64,000 bases of DNA from NCBI GenBank assembly GCA_020073085.1, contig JAIQFV010000014.1, forward strand, positions 62,001 to 126,000. The letters are read 5' to 3'. The notes beneath the pieces were generated by a model that saw only the letters and a list, made by a program, of their open reading frames with translations, made no database searches and was not told where the DNA came from. This DNA is from Terriglobia bacterium. GTDB lineage: Bacteria > Acidobacteriota > Terriglobia > JAIQFV01. Numbering within the stretch: the first letter of the stretch is position 1; each line of letters starts with the position of its first letter. Made by a program: the position numbers and the translations under genes. Positions 3,022-12,550 of this stretch are shown piece by piece.

Positions 3022-3037
3022 TGGCACCCCATTTGCC
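3022..3037 (+). promoter_or_regulatory. Sigma-54 (RpoN) promoter for the fibre-subunit genes
   Basis: TGGCACCCCATTTGCC matches the -24/-12 consensus TGGCACG-N4-TTGCW with GG at 3023-3024 and GC at 3035-3036, the obligatory spacing. Transcription should start near 3048-3050, leaving a leader of about 260 bases before the first subunit gene. Sigma-54 promoters need an AAA+ activator; none is encoded in the window. Confidence 0.75.
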
Positions 3038-3114
3038 AATGAGTCTCTGTTGATTTTATTGGAGGAATCAACGTGTGCTCATCTCTGGTCCCGGAAACAA
3101 GACCTATGGGGCTC

Positions 3115-3128
3115 GTCACAATTCTGAC
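3115..3128. promoter_or_regulatory. Operator-like palindrome GTCACAATTCTGAC
   Basis: GTCA-N6-TGAC, in the leader of the first cassette and downstream of the predicted sigma-54 start site. It differs by one base from the element at 5326-5339 in front of the second cassette. The near-identity of two separate copies, each ahead of an equivalent gene, is what argues for function. Confidence 0.5.
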
Positions 3129-3306
3129 ACACCTTTGAAATATTTTTGTTAAGTGTCTGATGTAAAAAATGACATGTACGATGCGAAAGGGAATGACGAT
3201 GAAGCGGCAGAAGCAAATGAAGACGGGATCAACAAGAAGGTTGATTCATAGTTCCTCTCATAAATCCGGTCTACCAGTGACCCATAAACTGGGAAAGGAA
3301 AATGAA

Positions 3307-3819
3307 ATGAAAAACAATTGGAAAGCTCTTTTGACTTGCACTGCAGTTGTGGCACTGGTCCTCTTGATGGGAACTTCGACCTTCGCCGCAAACGTCACTC
3401 AAACCCTGACCATCAATGCCACGGTGGCCGCCCGGGCGGAATTAACGCTGGCTCCGGCGACGATCAGTTTTGCCGACGCCAGTCCGGCGACCACGCCGAG
3501 CATCACGGCCAATTCCCCGGTCACCGTGACGGCGAATGTGCGCACTGCAAAAGCATCGACAGCAACTCTGACGGCTCTGGCTGGCACCGATCTCACCTCA
3601 GGGACGGATACCATTCCGATTACAGCCGTCACTTGGACAGCGTCAGCGTTGCCGTTTATTGCGGGGACCATGAGCCATACCTCCGCGCAAAGTGGTGCGA
3701 CGTTCAGCGCAGGCAGCGGTTCTTATAGCGGGACATACACTTTCACGTTGGCCAATAGCTGGAATTATAACGTCGGCGCTTATGCCGCGACAGTGACTTA
3801 TACATTGACCGCTCCATAA
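3307..3819 (+). CDS. Small secreted beta-sandwich protein, fibre-subunit candidate A
   Basis: A 170-residue protein with a signal peptide (MKNNWKALL..., hydrophobic core, cleavage near TFA-AN) and a Thr/Ala/Ser-rich mature part without cysteine. The mature domain runs from TLTINATVAARAELTLAP through ISFADASP, VTVTANVRT, LTSGTDTIPI and WTAS to the end strand AATVTYTLTAP. Alternating polar/hydrophobic strands suggest one Ig-like domain. It is one of six paralogues in this cluster and pairs most closely with protein D at 5688. The start at 3307 has GGAAAGGA upstream. An overlapping longer frame to 3169 is probably not used. A role as fibre subunit is inferred from the chaperone and barrel genes downstream; spore-coat-U or DUF4402-like proteins are the nearest families I can think of. 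Confidence 0.8.
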   Translation: MKNNWKALLTCTAVVALVLLMGTSTFAANVTQTLTINATVAARAELTLAPATISFADASPATTPSITANSPVTVTANVRTAKASTATLTALAGTDLTSGTDTIPITAVTWTASALPFIAGTMSHTSAQSGATFSAGSGSYSGTYTFTLANSWNYNVGAYAATVTYTLTAP

Positions 3820-3895
3820 AAGATATCTTCCAGGTTTTACCGGCGGCCGGATTTGAATCGGAATGATCTTAACCAAACGAATCTCGGAGGACATC

Positions 3896-4408
3896 ATGAA
3901 ACAATCTTATAAGACCTTGTTGAGCTTCGGGGCGGTGGCGTTGATGGTCCTGTTCATCAGCTCCTCAGTTTTTGCCGCATCGAGCCCAGCCACCCTCACA
4001 ATCAACGCGACCGTTGCGGCCCGGGCCGAGTTAGTGCTGGCGCCGACGACGATCAACTTTGCAGACGCGAGTCCGACCACGACCGCTTCCGTTCCTGCAG
4101 ATAACCCCGTGGCTGTGACCGCGAGGATCCGTACTGGGAGAGCGACTGCAGCAACGCTAACAGTTACCTCCGCTGCAGATTTGACCGCAGGCACGGACAC
4201 CATTCCGATCAGCAATGTCAGTTGGACCGCCTCCGGCGCGCCTTTTATCGCCGGGACCATGAACAAGGCAACGCCGCAAAGTGCCGCGACCTTCGCTAAC
4301 GGCAGTGGATTGTTCGGCGGGACGTTCAATTTTTTCCTGGCCAATAGCTGGACCTACAATACCGGCGCTTACACAGCAACGGTTACCTATACATTGACCG
4401 CCCCATAA
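3896..4408 (+). CDS. Small secreted beta-sandwich protein, fibre-subunit candidate B
   Basis: A 170-residue paralogue of A with signal peptide (MKQSYKTLLSFGAVALMVL..., cleavage near VFA-AS). The mature domain has the same blocks: TLTINATVAARAELVLAP, INFADASP, VAVTARIRTG, LTAGTDTIPIS, WTASGAPFIAGTMNK and the closing TATVTYTLTAP. No cysteines. Shared details (ELVLxPTTINFAD, ADNPVxVTARxRTGxATAATLTV, GxFNFxLAN) make it the counterpart of E at 6253 rather than of A. CGGAGG seven bases upstream supports the start. It follows A by 76 bases, most likely in the same transcript. Confidence 0.8.
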   Translation: MKQSYKTLLSFGAVALMVLFISSSVFAASSPATLTINATVAARAELVLAPTTINFADASPTTTASVPADNPVAVTARIRTGRATAATLTVTSAADLTAGTDTIPISNVSWTASGAPFIAGTMNKATPQSAATFANGSGLFGGTFNFFLANSWTYNTGAYTATVTYTLTAP

Positions 4409-4437
4409 AGGCGGCTGCGGCTGGCTTCGATAGAGAC

Positions 4438-4472
4438 AGCAGCGGGACGATTGCAGAAACGCTCCCGCTGCT
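4438..4472 (+). terminator. Intercistronic hairpin before cysteine-containing subunit C
   Basis: AGCAGCGGGA at 4438-4447 pairs perfectly with TCCCGCTGCT at 4463-4472. There is no clear U-run, so it may be a leaky terminator or a 3'-end protecting stem between B and C. An equivalent stem with a T-run sits at 6794-6828 in the second cassette. Confidence 0.6.
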
Positions 4473-4517
4473 CCATCTATCACTCTTAAGAGATGCGCGC
4501 CTGAGAGGAAGACGCCC

Positions 4518-5069
4518 ATGAGACCCGATAGGCAGAACAAGCCAGAACCAAAGGGGATGGGCAGGTTCAAGCAGCAGACGATCGCGGGAATGGTGATCGC
4601 GATCGCCCTGCTGATTGCGAGTCCACTTTCCCAAGCCCAGACCTTGTCTCTGAACGTGAATCCCAGTTCGATTAGTTTCGCGGATCAAAATCCTACTAAC
4701 TTCCCCAGTATCTCGGCGAGCGCGATCGTGCAGGTGCAAGTCACCGCTTCCTGGGGCAATGGGACCTGGTCGGTCACAAGCCTGGCTGGCGGCGATCTCT
4801 TAAACTCCGACGGGAGAAGCGTGATTCCAATTTCCAATATGCGCTGGACCGCTTCGCGGGCCAGCGGCAGCTGCTCCGGGGGATGTACTTGCATGGGGGG
4901 GACAGCCAGTAAATCGAGCCCGCAACATATCCTCAACGGGAGTGGCTATACCGGGTTCCTTGGATTTGGTAGTTATACCTGCAATGTTAACTTCACACTC
5001 GTGAATGACTGGAGTTACAACACGGGGTCCTATTCCCAATCGCTCACGGTCACCGCGGCAAATCCGTAA
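4518..5069 (+). CDS. Cysteine-containing secreted paralogue, fibre-subunit candidate C
   Basis: A 183-residue secreted protein with a longer basic N-terminus and a signal peptide ending near SQAQT. The domain follows the same plan as A and B: ISFADQNPT, VQVQVTASW, then a nearly equivalent IPISNMRWTAS block and VNDWSYNTGSYSQSLTV at the end. It differs by four cysteines (SCSGGCTC around residues 117-124 and YTCNV further on), which could form disulphides in the periplasm. It is the counterpart of F at 6860. GAGAGGAA before ATG supports the start. Placement behind a hairpin suggests lower expression than A and B, fitting a tip, base or adaptor subunit; this is inference. Confidence 0.75.
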   Translation: MRPDRQNKPEPKGMGRFKQQTIAGMVIAIALLIASPLSQAQTLSLNVNPSSISFADQNPTNFPSISASAIVQVQVTASWGNGTWSVTSLAGGDLLNSDGRSVIPISNMRWTASRASGSCSGGCTCMGGTASKSSPQHILNGSGYTGFLGFGSYTCNVNFTLVNDWSYNTGSYSQSLTVTAANP

Positions 5070-5687
5070 ACGGATTCCCCGGAGTTGTCCTTGGGTTCGA
5101 GAGATCCGATTGGATTGGGTGTCTCGCGGTTTTCTGTGGGGGATCCCGGTCCTCTCTGATCCTTATTCCTTGTCGCCATTCGACAACCCCATATTGACTT
5201 AATCTAAACGCGCTTTTCCCAGTCCCTTACTTGGGGGGCTAAGATGTCTTCATTTTGATGATGAGTGCTGCCATTTAAACCATCCCTAAAGTGATCTCTA
5301 GCACCTCGTCGCTTGGCCCAAAATCGTCACAATTTTGACATCCCTTCCTCAGAAGTTACAACTCCTCCCTTTCCTTTCAAGTTCTGAAATGTCACAAAAA
5401 TGTTAATTTATGACCTTTAGTTAGAAAGGCTTAGATCGTCGGACCCCAATGAAATCAGGGTCTCTTGAAGGGTCTACTCTCCGGCCCTATCCATCCCCAA
5501 GGAATCTCCCTACCGTCACATTTTTGTCATATGAAAGTTGTAAAACATGACTGTGATTATCGAGAGGGGTTTAACAGTGGACTTGACAGAGCAAAATTCG
5601 ACAAAGCAAGCGGTGATCAGCAAGTCCAGTGTTAAGCCCCTTGATGAGTCCGAGAAAAAACAAATTTCATTCAAACAAGAGGAAAAC
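5070..5687. other. Long leader between the two subunit cassettes
   Basis: This 618-base gap holds several GTCACA elements (5326, 5391, 5515) and AT-rich stretches, and looks like a duplicated regulatory leader. An open frame from 5547 is continuous with gene D, but its first 47 residues are hydrophilic and resemble no paralogue, so I treat them as untranslated. Confidence 0.5.
5326..5339. promoter_or_regulatory. Operator-like palindrome GTCACAATTTTGAC before the second cassette
   Basis: GTCA-N6-TGAC, one base different from the element at 3115-3128. Further GTCACA half-sites occur at 5391 and 5515 in the same leader. I could not find a convincing -24/-12 promoter in this gap, so the second cassette may have another promoter type or be read from the first. 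Confidence 0.45.
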
Positions 5688-6206
5688 ATGAAAACCAATT
5701 CGAGTCCCGCCAGGAAGATCTTTACAATTCTTGCTGTGATGGGGGTGGCAGCCATGATGACCGGCTCCACACTTTTTGCGGCCACACAAACCTTAACCAT
5801 CAATGCTACGGTATCCGCTCGTGCGGAGTTGACACTATCCCCTTCAACGATCAATTTTGTGGATTCAAGTCCCACTGGCACGCCAACCATCACCGCTAAC
5901 TCCACGGTGGCCGTGACGGCCAACGTGCGGACAGCGGCAAACAGCAAAGCGACGCTCCTGGCGGCAGTGAGTGGAGACCTGATGTCGGGGACTGACTCCA
6001 TCCCCGCGAGCAATGTCAGTTGGACCGCTTCGGCGGGTCCATTCATTGCCGGAACCTTGAACAAGACCACGGCGCAGAGTGCGGCCAATTTTGCAAACGG
6101 GAGCGGGTCGTACAACGGAGTTTACACTTTTACCCTGGTCAACAGCTGGACCTACAACACAGGGAGTTATGCGGCGACGGTGACCTACACCCTGACCGCT
6201 CCATAG
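5688..6206 (+). CDS. Small secreted beta-sandwich protein, fibre-subunit candidate D
   Basis: A 172-residue paralogue with signal peptide (MKTNSSPARKIFTILAVMGV..., cleavage near LFA-AT), no cysteine and the common blocks TLTINATVSARAELTLSP, INFVDSSP, VAVTANVRT, SGTDSIP, WTAS and AATVTYTLTAP. TPTITANS and GSYNGVYTFTL match A (TPSITANS, GSYSGTYTFTL), so D opens the second copy of the cassette. AGAGGAAAAC precedes the ATG at 5688, a better start than 5547, because the other paralogues also begin directly with the signal peptide. Role inferred as for A. Confidence 0.8.
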   Translation: MKTNSSPARKIFTILAVMGVAAMMTGSTLFAATQTLTINATVSARAELTLSPSTINFVDSSPTGTPTITANSTVAVTANVRTAANSKATLLAAVSGDLMSGTDSIPASNVSWTASAGPFIAGTLNKTTAQSAANFANGSGSYNGVYTFTLVNSWTYNTGSYAATVTYTLTAP

Positions 6207-6252
6207 ATTTTAGCTTTCAAAACTTGAACAAATAATCCTTATGGAGACCAAC

Positions 6253-6765
6253 ATGAAGAACTTTTGGAAGACCCTGATAACGATTACAGTAATTGCCGGC
6301 GCCGCGCTCATCCTGAGCACTGCAGCTTTCGCTGCATCCGACAGCAAGACGCTGACCATCAATGCCACCATTTCGGCTCGCGCCGAGCTGGTGCTTTCGC
6401 CCACGACGATCAACTTCGCTGATAACAGTCCGACGTCGGTAGCTTCCGTTGCCGCCGACAACCCCGTCTCGGTGACCGCCAGGGTACGCACGGGAAAAGC
6501 GACCGCAGCGACATTGACGGTTGCTTCCCCTACCGATCTGACTTCGGGTTCGGATACCATTCCGATCAGTGCAGTGAGTTGGACCGCGACCGGCGCGCCA
6601 TTCATCGCCGGGGCGATGAACAAAACGACCGCCCAGAGCGCGGCGACCTTTGCCAATGGCAGCGGTTCGTTCACCGGCTCATTTAATTTTGTCCTGGCGA
6701 ATACCTGGGCTTACAATACCGGGAGCTATACGGCCAACGTTACGTATACGCTGACCGCCCCCTAG
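6253..6765 (+). CDS. Small secreted beta-sandwich protein, fibre-subunit candidate E
   Basis: A 170-residue paralogue with signal peptide (MKNFWKTLITITVIAGA..., cleavage near AFA-AS) and no cysteine. It shares with B the ELVLSPTTINFAD, ADNPVSVTARVRTG and FNFVLANTW stretches, and ends in TYTLTAP. An ATG at 6241 is in frame, but GGAG six bases before the ATG at 6253 and the paralogue N-termini favour 6253. Only 46 bases separate it from D, so the two should be co-transcribed. Confidence 0.8.
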   Translation: MKNFWKTLITITVIAGAALILSTAAFAASDSKTLTINATISARAELVLSPTTINFADNSPTSVASVAADNPVSVTARVRTGKATAATLTVASPTDLTSGSDTIPISAVSWTATGAPFIAGAMNKTTAQSAATFANGSGSFTGSFNFVLANTWAYNTGSYTANVTYTLTAP

Positions 6766-6793
6766 TTCTCCTGCTGCGGGTTCGGTGATGTGC

Positions 6794-6837
6794 GGACAGC
6801 GGGATGGTGATGACCTCCCCCGCTGTCCCGGTTTTTT
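6794..6837 (+). terminator. Hairpin plus T-run before cysteine-containing subunit F
   Basis: GGACAGCGGG (6794-6803) pairs perfectly with CCCGCTGTCC (6819-6828), followed by a T-run at 6832-6837. This is a proper intrinsic-terminator shape inside the putative operon, so it probably acts as an attenuator that lowers transcription of F relative to D and E. Its position matches the hairpin at 4438-4472. Confidence 0.7.
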
Positions 6838-6859
6838 CGAAGGAAAGATAGGTCAAGCG

Positions 6860-7372
6860 ATGCTAAAAAAGACGGAAACAAAAATTTTGATGGGGATCGC
6901 GGTTCTGGCGGCGGTCTGCATGTGGGGTTCGCCGTCTTACGCTGCAGTTAATTTCACGCTCACGATAACTCCGTCCACCATCAGTTTTCCTGATGCCAAT
7001 CCAACCACGACGGCCCAGATTCCAGCCAACTCCTCAGTGGCGATAAAAGTGACGACGAGTTATGCGACTAACACGAATTGGTCGGTTCACTTTTTGGCCA
7101 ATGGCGATCTGAGGAATAGTGTTGGCACGAGCACGATTCCCATCGCCAACATCACTTGGACTGCAACGCTAACCGGGAATTCCTGTCTGCAAGGTTGCAG
7201 CTGCGTGGCAGGGACCATGAGCTCGACGGCCGCACAGGATGTGATTCGAGGGCGCGGGAACACTCCTACGAACGGTTTCAATTGCAATACCAATTTTCTG
7301 CTGAAGAACCAGTGGGGTTACATCACAGGCTCATACACTCAGACGATTACTGTGGTCACCGCATCGCCATAA
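6860..7372 (+). CDS. Cysteine-containing secreted paralogue, fibre-subunit candidate F
   Basis: A 170-residue secreted protein (signal peptide MLKKTETKILMGIAVLAAV..., cleavage near SYA-AV). It has ISFPDANPTT, the IPIANITWTA block, SCLQGCSCVAGTMS and NCNTNFLL, ending in GSYTQTITVVTASP. The four cysteines sit where those of C sit, making F its counterpart in the second cassette. The start follows AGGTCAAGCG. An in-frame start at 6785 lies inside the preceding hairpin region and is unlikely. It is the last subunit gene before a 720-base gap and the chaperone gene. Confidence 0.75.
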   Translation: MLKKTETKILMGIAVLAAVCMWGSPSYAAVNFTLTITPSTISFPDANPTTTAQIPANSSVAIKVTTSYATNTNWSVHFLANGDLRNSVGTSTIPIANITWTATLTGNSCLQGCSCVAGTMSSTAAQDVIRGRGNTPTNGFNCNTNFLLKNQWGYITGSYTQTITVVTASP

Positions 7373-8092
7373 ACACCTCCCCTCTGCCCCGGGGCCCTGA
7401 GAAATGCGGGTATCCGTGAGGGTGAGGCCTTTGAAGTTCGCGTATGTCCTCCGTTCGATTGTTGAAGAGCAAGCGCAGAGAAATGATTCGGCCGGCCCAA
7501 GCGATGAACCGTTCTGTGATGATTTTCCGCCCACTCCCCTCACCCCCTGTCGCCTCGTTTGTCTGACCCAGAGCTTGATCGGCAAGGTTTCTTTTTCACG
7601 GTTTTCTTGGTTCACCTTCAGGGGGTTAACAAATTACCAGAGGGAAGAGCCACAAATTGTCAATGATGGAATCTCACGGAATTCCCTTAATGTGCTCAAA
7701 AAGAAAGAGATGTTCGATTGGAGGGTGGTTTGCATATGCATATAGGATGGTCTGCATTGGGTTAATGTCCCGCCATCCAAAGGATTGTAACCGGCCGTGG
7801 CCGGGTCCCTCGATTGAGCTGAGGCGAAGCGGGCGTCCCAGATAAGACTTTTCGCTTCAGGATAGACCTTTTCGTTGCCAGGTGGGTTTTGAAATCTCGC
7901 TTCCTACCAGCGCCGCACGCTCTGCTGCAAAAAATTCTGCAACCTCCAGTGGATGTTAAAGTTTTGAGACACTTTTTTCGGACAATGCAGCGTAGTGAAA
8001 GTGGCAGGATCGGAAGTGGAAAGAGGTAAGTCGAGTTGAATAAAGAAATCAAGGGGATCCAGGGAAGTTCAAGCAGGGATAAGGAAGGAAAG
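7373..8092. other. Long gap between subunits and chaperone, with a possible second sigma-54 promoter
   Basis: No convincing gene: the frames here have no signal peptide, no family motif and poor start signals. CACAAATTGT at 7651-7660 repeats the core of the element at 2996. TGGAGGGTGGTTTGCA at 7719-7734 keeps GG and GC of a -24/-12 promoter at the right spacing, but three of the intervening consensus bases differ. It may drive the chaperone and barrel genes separately. Confidence 0.4.
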
Positions 8093-8974
8093 ATGCAAGG
8101 AAGAGAAACAAAGAAAAGCAGAGGGGGACGGCAAGGGGCCTCGGTGGCCGGGCTGTCAGGGCTACTGCTGGTGGCCGCTATGATCTTCGGATCAGGAATC
8201 ACCCTTCGTGCGGATGTCGCCATCGGGGTCTTCCCGATCCGCGCGGAGCATGAGGTTCAGGCGGGACAGACCAAGACCGACGGGATCACGGTCGACAATG
8301 ACTCGGCAGAAAACATTCATATGCGCGTCACGGTGGCGGATTGGTATCTCACACGCGATGGAAACCCCACCTTCGTGAAAAAGGGCAAGTCTCCCGAGTT
8401 CTCGATGAGCGAATGGATTGTGGTGAATCCCGCAGAATTCGTCGTGCCTCCTCACGGTCATCAGATCATCCGTTACACGTTCACGGTTCCCAAGGATACC
8501 CCCGACGGTGGATATCACACAGCCATCATGATTGAGTCGGTTCCCAATATTGCGCCGGGACAAGACGCGCATGCCGCTTACTTGAACGCCCGGGTTGGCG
8601 CCATTATTTACGACCGCGTGGGAAAGACCACGCCGCAGGGAACCATCACCGCTCAGCAGGTGGTGATTGACCAGAAAGACACGGGCCAGGTGGGAGTCCA
8701 GATCACTTTGAAGAACAGCGGTTCCTCTCATTTCCGATTCAAGGGAGAAAGCAAGATCATCGACAAACAGGGAAAGGTGATTGAGACCCTGCCGATCAAT
8801 GACTCCGTGGTCCTCCCCCAGTCGGAACGGGACGTTTTCGTCCCGGTCAAAGGAATCCTTCCCACCGACGGATTTACGATTGTCAGCAGCCTGGACATTG
8901 GACTGAAAGAACTGCTCGAAGCAGAGACCCGAGTGGAGCCGAATCCTTCAAGTCAGCCGGAAGTGAAAAAGTAA
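8093..8974 (+). CDS. Periplasmic PapD/DUF916-like chaperone
   Basis: A 293-residue protein with a basic N-terminus and signal peptide (RGGRQGASVAGLSGLLLV..., cleavage near LRA-DV), then two predicted Ig-like domains. The first carries a PapD/DUF916-style pattern: a hydrophobic strand, VNPAEFVVPPHGHQIIRYTF and PKDTPDGGYHTAIMI. The second runs from about VGVQITLKNSGSSHFRF to the end. In pilus chaperones the first domain donates a strand to the subunit; that function is inferred. AAGGAAGG before ATG supports 8093; an alternative TTG start at 8036 is preceded by GAGG. It is followed after 9 bases by the barrel gene, so the two are one operon. WxL-interacting proteins of Gram-positives are the other family it recalls. 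Confidence 0.7.
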   Translation: MQGRETKKSRGGRQGASVAGLSGLLLVAAMIFGSGITLRADVAIGVFPIRAEHEVQAGQTKTDGITVDNDSAENIHMRVTVADWYLTRDGNPTFVKKGKSPEFSMSEWIVVNPAEFVVPPHGHQIIRYTFTVPKDTPDGGYHTAIMIESVPNIAPGQDAHAAYLNARVGAIIYDRVGKTTPQGTITAQQVVIDQKDTGQVGVQITLKNSGSSHFRFKGESKIIDKQGKVIETLPINDSVVLPQSERDVFVPVKGILPTDGFTIVSSLDIGLKELLEAETRVEPNPSSQPEVKK

Positions 8975-8983
8975 ATTCTTACA

Positions 8984-11900
8984 ATGACGACCAACGGAAA
9001 GACCTCATCACAGTCGCGGCGCCGGACGCCAGGATTCATTTGCGCCGCGGTTATGGTGTGCCTCCTTTTGGCCCCGGCTCAGGTCCTTCGAGGTGAAGAG
9101 GCCGGCGGCGCCACAGTCCAGTTCCAGTTCAATAACAATGCCACCGGCGCGACTTCCAGTATCCTCAACAACCCGCTCTTCTCCCTGGCGATTCCAGGAT
9201 ATACGAATGCGGATCTGAGGGTGGACACCTACCAGTTCATTCCGAATTGGGGCCTGCTGAAAACCTCTTTCGACGTGGCCAACACCAACGACTCTCTCCG
9301 TCCCAGCCGGGGAATGCTTGAATTGTCGGACTATCATCTTGGAGAATGGAAGTTTGATATTGCGGCAGGGGACCAGCCCTTCGCCGCTTACAACATCGAC
9401 TTTGGGTTGAATTCCCTGTTTAACCCGTTTGCCTATCTGCGCGGTGGGCGAGTGACCACCTCGACCGACCACGTGTCGTTTACGGTTTTTGGAGGGCGCA
9501 CCGCCGCGATGAATGGGTTTTTCGGCGAGTCGCTGCGTCTGAGCGAAGAAAGTATCATGGGAGCCCGTGGGGTGTTCACTCCCTCGTCGAAATTGAAGAT
9601 CGGTGCCAGTCTGGTCCACACCAGCGCCCCGGAGAACTCCACCGACCAAATGATTCCTCAGTCCGATACCATGGCGACGTTGGATGTGCTGTACCAGCTG
9701 AATCCCCATGTTCAATTTCTGGGAGAATCTTCGCTTTCCAAATTTTCCGGCTCCCCCGACACCGAGCATCGCGACGGAATGGATCTCTCCTATCTGTTTG
9801 GCACCAAGATCAAGGGCGTGCGGGGCAGTGCGGAAGTCACCTGGCAGAGGATGGGGCCCAATTATCTTCCGCTCAACTTCTTCAATCTGGGAGATCGCGA
9901 AGGACTCTTCAGCTCCGCGGATTATCAGGTGAATCACAAGCTGTCTTTGTACGGGGCGTTCAATCGTTTCCACACCAATCTGCTCGATTCTCACACCCAG
10001 ACCGGACTTCAAGTCAACAACCAGTTCATCGGGGCTCGGTATGTTTTGCTCCCTCACAGCACCCTTAATATTCGTGTAGGGAACGCCGGGGTCGAATCCA
10101 GCGCGTTCAGTCCCAATTTTGTTTCCACTCACAGCCACACCCTGGACCTCGAGTTCCTTCAACAGTTTCGAGCCTGGCGGTTCCTGGCGCGTTACATGGA
10201 CAGCCGCGACCTTGATTTCACCACCGCTTTCCAGCACAGCTTGCGCCAGCGGGTGGAGTTCGAGGTGCGCAGGACGTGGAAGAACGGGACCAACCTCTGG
10301 GTCTCCGGTGGCACGCTGCGCGAGGCGCAGCAGCAGGTGGAGGACAACAAACACTTGAGCCTGGTGGGAAGCGCCGGATTCACCTGGAACGTGCGACCCA
10401 CTTTGTCGTTCTATTCGGAGCTGAACTGGAACCAGGATGTGGCCGTGGTGCGGACCTCGAGCTTCAACAACACTTCATTAAACAGCGGCGTGAGTTGGGC
10501 GCTCCCCCACGGAGTCCAGTTTTCGGTGAACGGCCAGTACAACCGCTCCAGCAACAAGATCAACCTCCTGGACTTCTACACGCTGTCTCCCGACAATGTC
10601 AGCGACCTCCAGAACCTCCTGCTCAACCAGCAGCTCAACCGGTACCAGTTCACCTTTAGGATCCAGAAGACCTTCCGGTGGGGAGAGCGCCCTCAGGAAA
10701 TCCTGCTCAGAGAATCAGGCGCTTCGGCGCTGGCGGGCCGACCTCATGATTTTGGAAACATCGCGGGACTGGTCTTTAACGACCTCGACCGGAACAGTCT
10801 GAAGGACAACAAGGAAACGGGCGTTTCCAACGTTACGGTCGTTCTTGACAAGCGGGTGAAAGCTTCGGTGGATGAGCAGGGCCGGTTTGAATTCAAGAAT
10901 GTCCCGGTCGGAAAGCACACCGTGGAGTTGGATCTGCTCACCCTGCCGGCGACCTTCGACGCCGGGGCCAATACCCGGGTGGCTGTCAACGTCGCGAAAC
11001 GCGCGACCGCCGATGTTCAGTTTCCGCTGTTGGAACTCGGAAAGGTTTCGGGAAAGGTCGTCCTCGTGAACGGGATGGACTCCAATGGTCTTCGTAAGGA
11101 AATTGGAGAAAGCAAAGTCCCTGAACTGCCGGGGACGAGTATCATCATCCTCCTGAATGAGACTTACAAGGTAACCTTTACCGATGGGGACGGAGAGTTC
11201 GAGTTCAGCAACATCCCGAGCGGTGAGTACCGCGTCCGCATCGATCGCGGCACGCTGCCCGAGTTCTCTTCAGTCGATTCCGAGGAAGTGCAAGTGGTTC
11301 GAATTGCACCCGGCGAGAAGCTCTCCAACCTAAAGTTTGTGGTCAAGCTCAATCCTCGCCCGAATCGCCGTCTCCTGGTGGCGTCCCAGACCATGCCGCA
11401 ACCTCCGAAGGCGGAGCCTGACACAACCGCCGTCGTCAACTCCGGGGCGAGAAAACGAGTCCGGTCTGAAGTGGCACAGAATGGAAAGTCGCCCGCAGAG
11501 AATCGCACTGGGAAAGCGACCTCAAGTGTTTCGGCGCTCGCGGGCGGCAATGGACCCACTCTCGAAGACATCGATCGGTGGTCGAAATCAGCGCAAAACG
11601 GGATCGTGATCCATAAGGTCCGGACCGGGGAAACCCTCGAGATTCTGGCGCTGAAGTACTACCAGACGAAAACGAAATGGACGCTGATCTTCAATGCCAA
11701 CAAGGATCAGATCGGCGCCTCCAAGAAATTGCAGCCCGGCCAGGAGTTGAAGATCCCGGTGGAGCCGGAGCCGGTCTCGAGACTGAATAGGACGACAGGT
11801 CATGGCCCCGCAAGGGTTCACGTGGTCCAGCCGGGAGAAACACTCGGAAGTCTCTCCATGCGATATTACAAGACCGAGACCAAGTGGAACCTGATCTATG

Positions 11901-12103
11901 AAGCGAACAAGGCGCAACTGGCCGCTTCCAAGATTCTTCGTGTCGGACAGAAAATAACGATCCCTGTCGACCCCGAATTGGCGAAGGCGGTGGCTCCTGA
12001 TAAGAATGTGAACACCTCGAGTACTCTGGGAGCGTCCTCCGCCGACTCTTCCGCTGCCCCCGCGCCCTCGCCCGGCACCGGGAACGATCCCCCCTCGCAC
12101 TGA
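8984..12103 (+). CDS. Usher-like outer-membrane barrel with Ig-like and LysM domains
   Basis: A 1039-residue protein. After a signal peptide (about residues 1-38), residues 45 to about 570 are rich in alternating aromatic/polar strands typical of a large beta-barrel. At about 592 an SdrD-B/carboxypeptidase-regulatory-like domain begins (IAGLVFNDLDRNSLKDNKE), followed by a second one to about 790 (FTDGDGEFEFSNIPSGEYRV). A low-complexity linker leads to two LysM domains at about 873-929 and 944-998 (VRTGETLEILALKYYQ and VQPGETLGSLSMRYYK), which normally bind peptidoglycan. Classical ushers have a barrel with Ig-like end domains but no LysM; I see no clear FimD N-terminal domain. Context with a chaperone and six small subunits suggests subunit export. 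An unrelated porin-type function cannot be excluded. Confidence 0.65.
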   Translation: MTTNGKTSSQSRRRTPGFICAAVMVCLLLAPAQVLRGEEAGGATVQFQFNNNATGATSSILNNPLFSLAIPGYTNADLRVDTYQFIPNWGLLKTSFDVANTNDSLRPSRGMLELSDYHLGEWKFDIAAGDQPFAAYNIDFGLNSLFNPFAYLRGGRVTTSTDHVSFTVFGGRTAAMNGFFGESLRLSEESIMGARGVFTPSSKLKIGASLVHTSAPENSTDQMIPQSDTMATLDVLYQLNPHVQFLGESSLSKFSGSPDTEHRDGMDLSYLFGTKIKGVRGSAEVTWQRMGPNYLPLNFFNLGDREGLFSSADYQVNHKLSLYGAFNRFHTNLLDSHTQTGLQVNNQFIGARYVLLPHSTLNIRVGNAGVESSAFSPNFVSTHSHTLDLEFLQQFRAWRFLARYMDSRDLDFTTAFQHSLRQRVEFEVRRTWKNGTNLWVSGGTLREAQQQVEDNKHLSLVGSAGFTWNVRPTLSFYSELNWNQDVAVVRTSSFNNTSLNSGVSWALPHGVQFSVNGQYNRSSNKINLLDFYTLSPDNVSDLQNLLLNQQLNRYQFTFRIQKTFRWGERPQEILLRESGASALAGRPHDFGNIAGLVFNDLDRNSLKDNKETGVSNVTVVLDKRVKASVDEQGRFEFKNVPVGKHTVELDLLTLPATFDAGANTRVAVNVAKRATADVQFPLLELGKVSGKVVLVNGMDSNGLRKEIGESKVPELPGTSIIILLNETYKVTFTDGDGEFEFSNIPSGEYRVRIDRGTLPEFSSVDSEEVQVVRIAPGEKLSNLKFVVKLNPRPNRRLLVASQTMPQPPKAEPDTTAVVNSGARKRVRSEVAQNGKSPAENRTGKATSSVSALAGGNGPTLEDIDRWSKSAQNGIVIHKVRTGETLEILALKYYQTKTKWTLIFNANKDQIGASKKLQPGQELKIPVEPEPVSRLNRTTGHGPARVHVVQPGETLGSLSMRYYKTETKWNLIYEANKAQLAASKILRVGQKITIPVDPELAKAVAPDKNVNTSSTLGASSADSSAAPAPSPGTGNDPPSH

Positions 12104-12109
12104 AGAAGA

Positions 12110-12550
12110 TCACCTGCTTCTCTGATTGACGGATCGGCGATATCCGTTTTCCCATCTACAGCCTTTCCATTCCCGAACGAAAAGAGAAAGGCTCTTTCCA
12201 TCTTTAGTGACCTGGGTTTGCTTCCAGCTTCCGACCTGCACGGCTTGATCGCCATTCACCCAGATCTTCATATCCGGATTGAAATCAAAGGCCGAAATCG
12301 TGAAGTTCGTCACGGCCGCCGTCCATACGCGCTTGAGGCGCGGAAATCCCACCAGGGGTCCTTCATTGATGTCGTAATAGATGTTGCTGGGATCCTTATC
12401 GAAAATTTCATCGAGAATCGAGAGATCCTTGGCCACAATGGCCCCGGTAAACTTCTTCGTTTTCTCCTGGATGGCCTGTTCCGGATCTTGCCCAAAGGCT
12501 GGGAGAGCCACGAGCATCACCAAAAGTACTGTGAAGCATGTCTTCCTCAT
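12110..12550 (-). CDS. Secreted NTF2/SnoaL-like (DUF4440-type) protein
   Basis: A 146-residue protein with a signal peptide (MRKTCFTVLLVMLVALPAFG-Q) and a cone-shaped NTF2-like domain. It begins with a helix EQAIQEKTKKFTGAIVAKD, followed by LDEIFDKDPSNIYYDINEG and strands ending at VGSWKQTQVTKDGKSLSLFVREW. The last 18 residues (from KGCRW) do not look like the usual final strand. A neighbouring frame does not repair it clearly, so a late frameshift is possible but unproven. GGAGGT four bases from the ATG gives a strong start. It is convergent with the usher-like gene, with six bases between them. Ligand or reaction unknown. Confidence 0.7.
   Translation of the reverse strand: MRKTCFTVLLVMLVALPAFGQDPEQAIQEKTKKFTGAIVAKDLSILDEIFDKDPSNIYYDINEGPLVGFPRLKRVWTAAVTNFTISAFDFNPDMKIWVNGDQAVQVGSWKQTQVTKDGKSLSLFVREWKGCRWENGYRRSVNQRSR

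Follow-up and report, generated by a model that had tools for sequence, protein, structure and literature searches.

We consider it likely that an operon at positions 3307-12103 on the + strand of a 64,000-nucleotide stretch of DNA (the window), part of contig C14 in a soil Acidobacteriota genome of 5.8 Mb, encodes a divergent export and assembly pathway of the chaperone/usher (CU) type. Its eight genes code for six small subunits, a chaperone-like protein and a 1039-residue large outer-membrane-type protein (OMP). It is not a canonical CU operon, since it has no PF00577 usher and no usher N-terminal domain. There is, however, good sequence evidence that it works like a CU system, in which the large protein would probably serve as an usher that lacks the N-terminal domain and is attached to peptidoglycan; that the product is a fibre we infer. 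A preliminary description of the same DNA had proposed a divergent CU-like system with a DUF916-type chaperone, and profile comparisons with controls, together with a gene order found in two phyla, lend this good support. The eight-gene, single-strand cluster that it placed at 3022-12103 has all its genes, but starts at 3307, positions 3022-3306 being merely upstream sequence.

Results

The gene for the two-domain periplasmic chaperone is taken as 8093-8974 (+ strand), the TTG at 8036 being merely the start of the longest open reading frame (ORF). The earlier view of this protein as PapD/DUF916-like agrees with its match to PF06030 (WxLIP_PGBD, DUF916), which at E 4.9e-6 and 27.0 bits falls just below the cut-off of 27.3. 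PapD_N was not reached by the window chaperone alone at E 1, and was matched above cut-off by the chaperone of a relative, L089; PF11797 was weakly matched in 2 of 21 chaperone relatives. A 21-row chaperone profile run against solved structures matched EfmWxLIP1 over its whole length (1.7e-7), CsuC (5.6e-4) and EcpB (0.014); structures of EfmWxLIP1 are available as 9i25 and 9i1y. When compared with hhalign, whose figures here and below are pairwise values and not database E-values, the family aligned over its whole length with archaic CU chaperones from three Acidobacteriota PF00577 usher loci (E 1.2e-17, probability 98.9, 232 columns) and likewise with Firmicutes WxLIPs (3.7e-12); WxLIPs and CU chaperones compared directly reached only 0.017. 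Column-shuffled controls for the CU comparison gave 0.31-0.86, and shuffled and reversed controls overall gave at least 0.28. The same archaic CU chaperones were retrieved by a hidden Markov model (HMM) of the chaperone family (E 6e-13 to 9e-18). Judged by these profiles, the chaperone is a sequence link between Gram-negative pilus chaperones and Gram-positive WxLIPs. We found no paper that describes a link between WxLIPs and CU chaperones in the open literature, a search that leaves preprints and most subscription journals uncovered.

Pro59 of CsuC has been described as the sole invariant residue of the CU superfamily (PMC4654587). This D1-strand proline aligns with P112 of the window chaperone, and CsuC Arg174, which with Arg89 and Tyr196 makes up the subunit-carboxylate anchor of non-classical chaperones, aligns with R214; both residues are invariant across a seven-member alignment. 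The strand equivalent to G1 alternates A161/L163/A165/V167. The protein ends ...SSLDIGLKELLEAETRVEPNPSSQPEVKK, and no C-terminal transmembrane helix was found there, the sequence offering no hydrophobic helix. In one relative (L065:6257-7120), the protein in the chaperone position carries an AMIN domain (PF11741, 4.9e-11), a further envelope- or peptidoglycan-associated module in operons of this type.

Downstream of the chaperone gene, the large protein (8984-12103, + strand) consists, in order, of a signal peptide, about 550 residues of presumed beta-barrel (mature residues 1-552; 9095-10750), two C-terminal beta-sandwich domains, SdrD_B-like (10760-10981; PF17210, 8.9e-13) and CarboxypepD_reg (11129-11299; PF13620, 4.7e-12), and two LysM domains. 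The first LysM (11612-11761, residues 877-926) is matched by PF01476 in two stretches and was placed by LysM2_NFP and NCBIfam matches; the second (11819-11965, residues 946-994) is matched by PF01476. The SdrD_B, CarboxypepD_reg and both LysM domains of this 1039-residue protein are above the Pfam cut-off. The barrel was a judgement of the preliminary description, and support for it is indirect. The barrel is presumed from position and size, and the sole direct hint of it comes from the orthologue L016, which matches Porin_4 below threshold (E 3.5e-4). Candidate amphipathic strands in the region number 22, against 18.5 +/- 2.3 in shuffles, a difference too weak to give a strand number.

An alignment of the OMP family (A8) was co-linear with Acidobacteriota ushers over 398 columns (hhalign 1.1e-8). 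The C-terminal part matched the ushers at 2.4e-7 over 129 columns, whereas a control made of this genome's TonB-type CarboxypepD domains gave 2.5e-4 over 48 columns; against distant usher-like OMPs, the two-domain C-terminal region reached 1.7e-23 and the TonB control 1.1e-7. These distant OMPs, which belong to operons of the same type, matched ushers at 1.9e-23, or at 2.9e-18 once their C-termini were removed. The OMPs form a graded series: the window group, g1, was linked with g2 (1.9e-24), with g3 (1.3e-19) and weakly with g4 (7.5e-5); g4 was linked with d2 through the N-terminal domain (2.1e-5); and d1 and d2 matched ushers at 2.8e-11 and 3.2e-12. Therefore, clear usher homologues are found among the OMPs of this operon type. 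The OMP group of the window seems, from these alignments, to be a derived form without the usher N-terminal domain. The barrel-to-barrel link between the window group and the usher homologues is suggestive only. In one OMP (L066:4292-6838), a Cu_amine_oxidN1 domain (PF07833, residues 54-168) stands at the N-terminus in the place of the usher N-terminal domain; two further OMPs among 36 also match PF07833, and the N-terminal region of this group matched that of the distant usher-like OMPs at 2.1e-5.

LysM is confined to the window's family (the window, L015 and L016). SPOR occurs at the same C-terminal place in L062, L064, L085 and L088, with 5 of 36 OMPs matching at E 0.01 or better, and most relatives have neither module. 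Because peptidoglycan-binding modules were gained independently at the same end, this pattern suggests that the C-terminal end of the OMP is periplasmic and that anchoring is useful and not essential; with LysM family-specific, SPOR elsewhere and nothing in most, anchoring is therefore not general. In the window itself, attachment of the platform to peptidoglycan by the LysM pair is plausible, the binding being read from the domains.

The six genes upstream of the chaperone encode small, beta-rich proteins with signal peptides and had been described as secreted paralogues, as their identities of 35-78% confirm. They fall into two classes, with identities of 64-78% within class A, 47% within class B and 35-39% between the two. 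Class A comprises subunits 1 (3307-3819), 2 (3896-4408), 4 (5688-6206) and 5 (6253-6765), and class B subunits 3 (4518-5069) and 6 (6860-7372), all on the + strand; the assignments rest on ORFs, paralogy and cassette duplication, and for class B also on alignments across loci. Genes 1-2 are co-linear with genes 4-5 across about 1.0 kb of DNA (67%, E 3e-89), and the closest pairs are genes 2 and 5 (78%) and genes 3 and 6 (47%). The six subunits thus form a duplicated A-A-B cassette, the second copy of which opens with subunit 4; L016 has one such triplet.

In class A, the mature protein has an N-terminal segment of alternating hydrophobics, TLTINATV, before the core. Subunit 1, for example, has a signal peptide, then the strand TQTLTINATV, and a last strand GAYAATVTYTLTAP; its candidate donor strand lies at 3400-3426 (+ strand), located by alignments. 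Class B lacks this strand, begins at the core and has four cysteines. Subunit 3 is a candidate tip or cap subunit; subunit 6 is encoded closest to the chaperone. In CU systems, subunits have an incomplete Ig fold with a donor extension at the N-terminus, which the tip subunit lacks. Several other families likewise have a strand-less subunit with four cysteines adjoining the chaperone, with the exception of L061, where the strand-less subunit has no cysteines and does not adjoin the chaperone. Glycine at -14 and tyrosine at -12 are present in 6/6 window subunits; both this glycine and a last strand with an alternating pattern are hallmark features of CU pilins. Either the first or the last strand had been offered as the donor. 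Since TLTINATV is present in A subunits and absent from B subunits, the alignments favour it as the donor strand, and the C-terminal strand, which contains the glycine at -14, looks like the edge that faces the chaperone.

Conservation of gene order elsewhere had been named beforehand as one of the points on which the proposal could fall, and the order is conserved. When relatives were searched with the OMP alignment, which does not depend on the chaperone, 23 of 200 were positive. Fourteen OMP-anchored loci were fetched (in L171 the OMP frame is incomplete), two of which had no upstream sequence; the chaperone was upstream in all 12 of the others. An adjacency kept at 12/12 independent loci goes far beyond chance. 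In 49 of 396 sampled Acidobacteriota genomes, a chaperone match reached 1e-6 or better, some of these matches being canonical CU chaperones. At nearly all chaperone-anchored loci, a large gene follows downstream on the same strand. Three loci depart from this: L074, L082, which carries a PF00577 usher frame, and L084, which stops at a contig end. The order of subunits, chaperone and large OMP recurs in many Acidobacteriota families and in Deinococcus, with one to five subunits among relatives; the neighbours compared are based on metagenome-assembled genomes (MAGs). NCBIfam has no model for the relatives tested. PF00577 usher operons were found in 8 of 149 sampled Acidobacteriota genomes (among them L078:6502-11519, L082 and L111); two adjoin SCPU-like subunits, and they offer a useful outgroup within the phylum.

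Three Deinococcus plasmids have the same order (L144:5851-11536, L145:5916-11662 and L146:5941-11514; chaperone HMM E 2e-36 to 2e-42). Here, a small protein, a chaperone of the same family, a second small protein and an OMP of about 1000-1090 residues with CarboxypepD_reg/SdrD_B C-termini follow one another. These operons differ from that of the window in having one small gene between chaperone and OMP, and an OMP with extra N-terminal Ig-like domains and without LysM. Their members are annotated as hypothetical or carboxypeptidase-like proteins; L145 belongs to Deinococcus psychrotolerans.

Discussion

We suggest the following pathway. Subunits, all bearing signal peptides, would cross the inner membrane via Sec. 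In the periplasm, an incomplete Ig-like subunit would be completed by the alternating hydrophobic strand of the chaperone, a donation predicted from the homology described above, with the C-terminal strand of the subunit, marked by glycine-14 and Tyr-12, at the chaperone interface. Chaperone-subunit complexes would then pass to the large OMP, a presumed barrel whose two usher-like domains, in the C-terminal part, would lie in the periplasm; homology supports these domains, and a gated pore is what the barrel would be expected to provide. At the OMP, the TLTINATV strand of one A subunit may take the place of the chaperone strand in the following subunit. A surface fibre would result, ending in a B subunit, which has no donor strand to offer. 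The two LysM domains at the C-terminus would keep this platform attached to peptidoglycan. That two A-A-B cassettes share a single chaperone and a single usher suggests fibres of two kinds, alternative or mixed.

Among known systems, archaic CU pili such as Csu of Acinetobacter baumannii (CsuC, CsuD, CsuA/B) have a homologous two-domain chaperone, whose superfamily proline and Arg174 site are kept in the window, and a like gene order; the window subunits also end in a G-x-Y alternating strand. Several differences from that system count against our proposal. A PF00577 usher has an N-terminal domain, a 24-strand barrel, a plug and C-terminal domains. The OMP has no usher N-terminal domain and no recognisable full-size plug, and PF00577 is unmatched in any member of its barrel family. 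OMPs of this kind also differ in their SdrD_B/CarboxypepD_reg C-termini and in LysM or SPOR. In the chaperone, neither Arg89 nor Tyr196 of CsuC is retained; at the Arg89 position, the window protein has His, whereas relatives have Arg (several of them), His or Asn, and Tyr196 is replaced. The subunits match no SCPU model and no pilin family in Pfam, and their hhalign match to the SCPU alignment is marginal (3.5e-4, probability 37, partly over signal peptides); against WxL, SCPU and DUF4402-like alignments, nothing significant was found except the last strand or the signal peptide. Taken alone, the barrel region matched significantly neither ushers (0.0044 and 0.013 in two groupings; shuffles 0.25-0.98) nor the distant OMPs (0.041 and 0.016). 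AlphaFold2 gave no reliable structure, with low confidence for subunit 5 (pLDDT 48, 11-row alignment) and a barrel left unconfirmed (pLDDT 26, two-row alignment). L018 (7304-8598 and 4862-6163), moreover, has a single subunit, which lacks the N-terminal strand, and this lone subunit before the chaperone is hard to square with a polymer. About 1.1 kb upstream, a subtilisin-like protein carries repeats of the motif FLDQSSAA, as well as a run of Ns.

Alternative CU pili (ECP) show likeness in the donor strand of the chaperone, where small hydrophobics of EcpB (Ala111, Ala113, Ala115, Ile117) correspond to A161, L163, A165 and V167; they differ in that neither subunits nor usher are significantly similar. 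In inverse autotransporters, the barrel comes after LysM, and the passenger consists of the Ig-like domains. In the window, the barrel is followed by the sandwich domains and then by LysM, subunits and chaperone having genes of their own, and an inverse autotransporter was rejected because LysM is on the wrong side. Intimin and YeeJ likewise combine a barrel in the outer membrane with LysM and Ig-like domains, and YeeJ is reported to bind peptidoglycan (PMC5595812). A canonical CU operon was also rejected, PF00577 being absent from the whole genome.

We regard as unlikely a diderm WxL/WxLIP surface complex, in which the DUF916-like protein would be an anchor partner on single subunits and a LysM-bearing OMP would display them with no polymer. 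The whole-length match to EfmWxLIP1 and to Firmicutes WxLIPs, covering both domains, speaks for it, as do LysM and SPOR, which suggest anchoring. A WxLIP strand is predicted to complete the WxL sandwich through a parallel sheet interaction and with no assembly machine; this resembles donor-strand complementation, and the words chaperone and donor are not used there (PMC10599100). On a Cellulosimicrobium plasmid (Actinomycetota; L147:4073-5915), a DUF916 protein adjoins a small secreted protein whose sequence ends GSYSSTLTLTLFEDTY. The neighbours there are LamG and glycosyl hydrolase proteins in place of a large OMP, and the arrangement looks like a monoderm counterpart. However, the match to CU chaperones is stronger than that to WxLIPs, WxLIPs have a C-terminal transmembrane helix that is not apparent in the window chaperone, and the subunits are not detectably WxL (no Pfam match; hhalign 0.039, probability 1.3) and occur with a large OMP in diderm hosts. 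Two subunit classes that differ exactly in the N-terminal strand point to assembly and export, and so does a large OMP that is obligatory and has C-terminal domains like those of ushers.

CU-type chemistry could also serve a spore-coat-like or surface-coat secretion system, whose product would be an amorphous coat or matrix of protein; this has reportedly been proposed for the Mcu-type spore-coat CU systems of Myxococcus. Subunit numbers that vary from one to five in relatives, the soil habitat of the bacterium and the inferential standing of the fibre would all suit such a product, but the conserved pairing of several subunits that have the N-terminal strand with one that lacks it fits a fibre that bears an end piece no less well, and we judge a coat improbable. 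We give still less credence to the large protein being a porin, transporter or polysaccharide-binding OMP that neighbours a DUF916-like protein and small adhesins by chance. The Porin_4 hint in L016 and the 41 CarboxypepD_reg matches among TonB-type OMPs of this genome would agree with it. Against it stand an adjacency to the chaperone that is universal among testable loci in two phyla and the excess of the C-terminal match to distant usher-like OMPs over the TonB control. TonB, plug and receptor models found no match in the window OMP and its CarboxypepD_reg is C-terminal, not N-terminal, so a TonB/Oar-type receptor was rejected.

More tentatively, and with considerable doubt, we propose that the operon family is a surviving intermediate: WxLIPs and CU chaperones would be one family using the same strand donation, and Acidobacteriota and Deinococcota would assemble fibres through an usher whose N-terminal domain, used for recruitment, has been lost and which LysM or SPOR modules anchor to peptidoglycan in some lineages. 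Few surface fibres of bacteria have been studied as thoroughly as CU pili, which are regarded as essentially proteobacterial. If the CU-type reading of the operon is right, a branch in Acidobacteriota and Deinococcota would widen the reach of these systems, and many operons of 'hypothetical proteins' would fall under one testable mechanism. A chaperone that lies between CU chaperones and WxLIPs makes a common origin of monoderm and diderm surface systems testable. The usher N-terminal domain recruits chaperone-subunit complexes in known systems, and an usher-like platform without it raises the question of how they are recruited here.

Genomic setting of the operon

The operon is present as a single copy, with one chaperone match in the genome and subunit paralogues at 3307-7372 and nowhere else. 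Its closest named relative, L015, is a soil Terriglobia (Acidobacteriota) MAG with 93% chaperone identity, and a contig scan with a single-protein query matched only this near-identical locus. The flanking genes are housekeeping genes, with neighbours that appear from their sequence to be thiG-like and queG-like. Both of these are retained at the orthologous operon in a second genus of the same family (L016), and the operon is therefore a fixed chromosomal locus there. Scans for promoters, terminators and Rfam families gave nothing above chance. Convergent to the OMP gene, at 12110-12550 on the - strand, is a gene for a small secreted protein that gives the impression, by sequence, of a SnoaL/DUF4440-like ketosteroid-isomerase fold; its product may be frameshifted, because the L015 copy has 159 amino acids and a different C-terminus.

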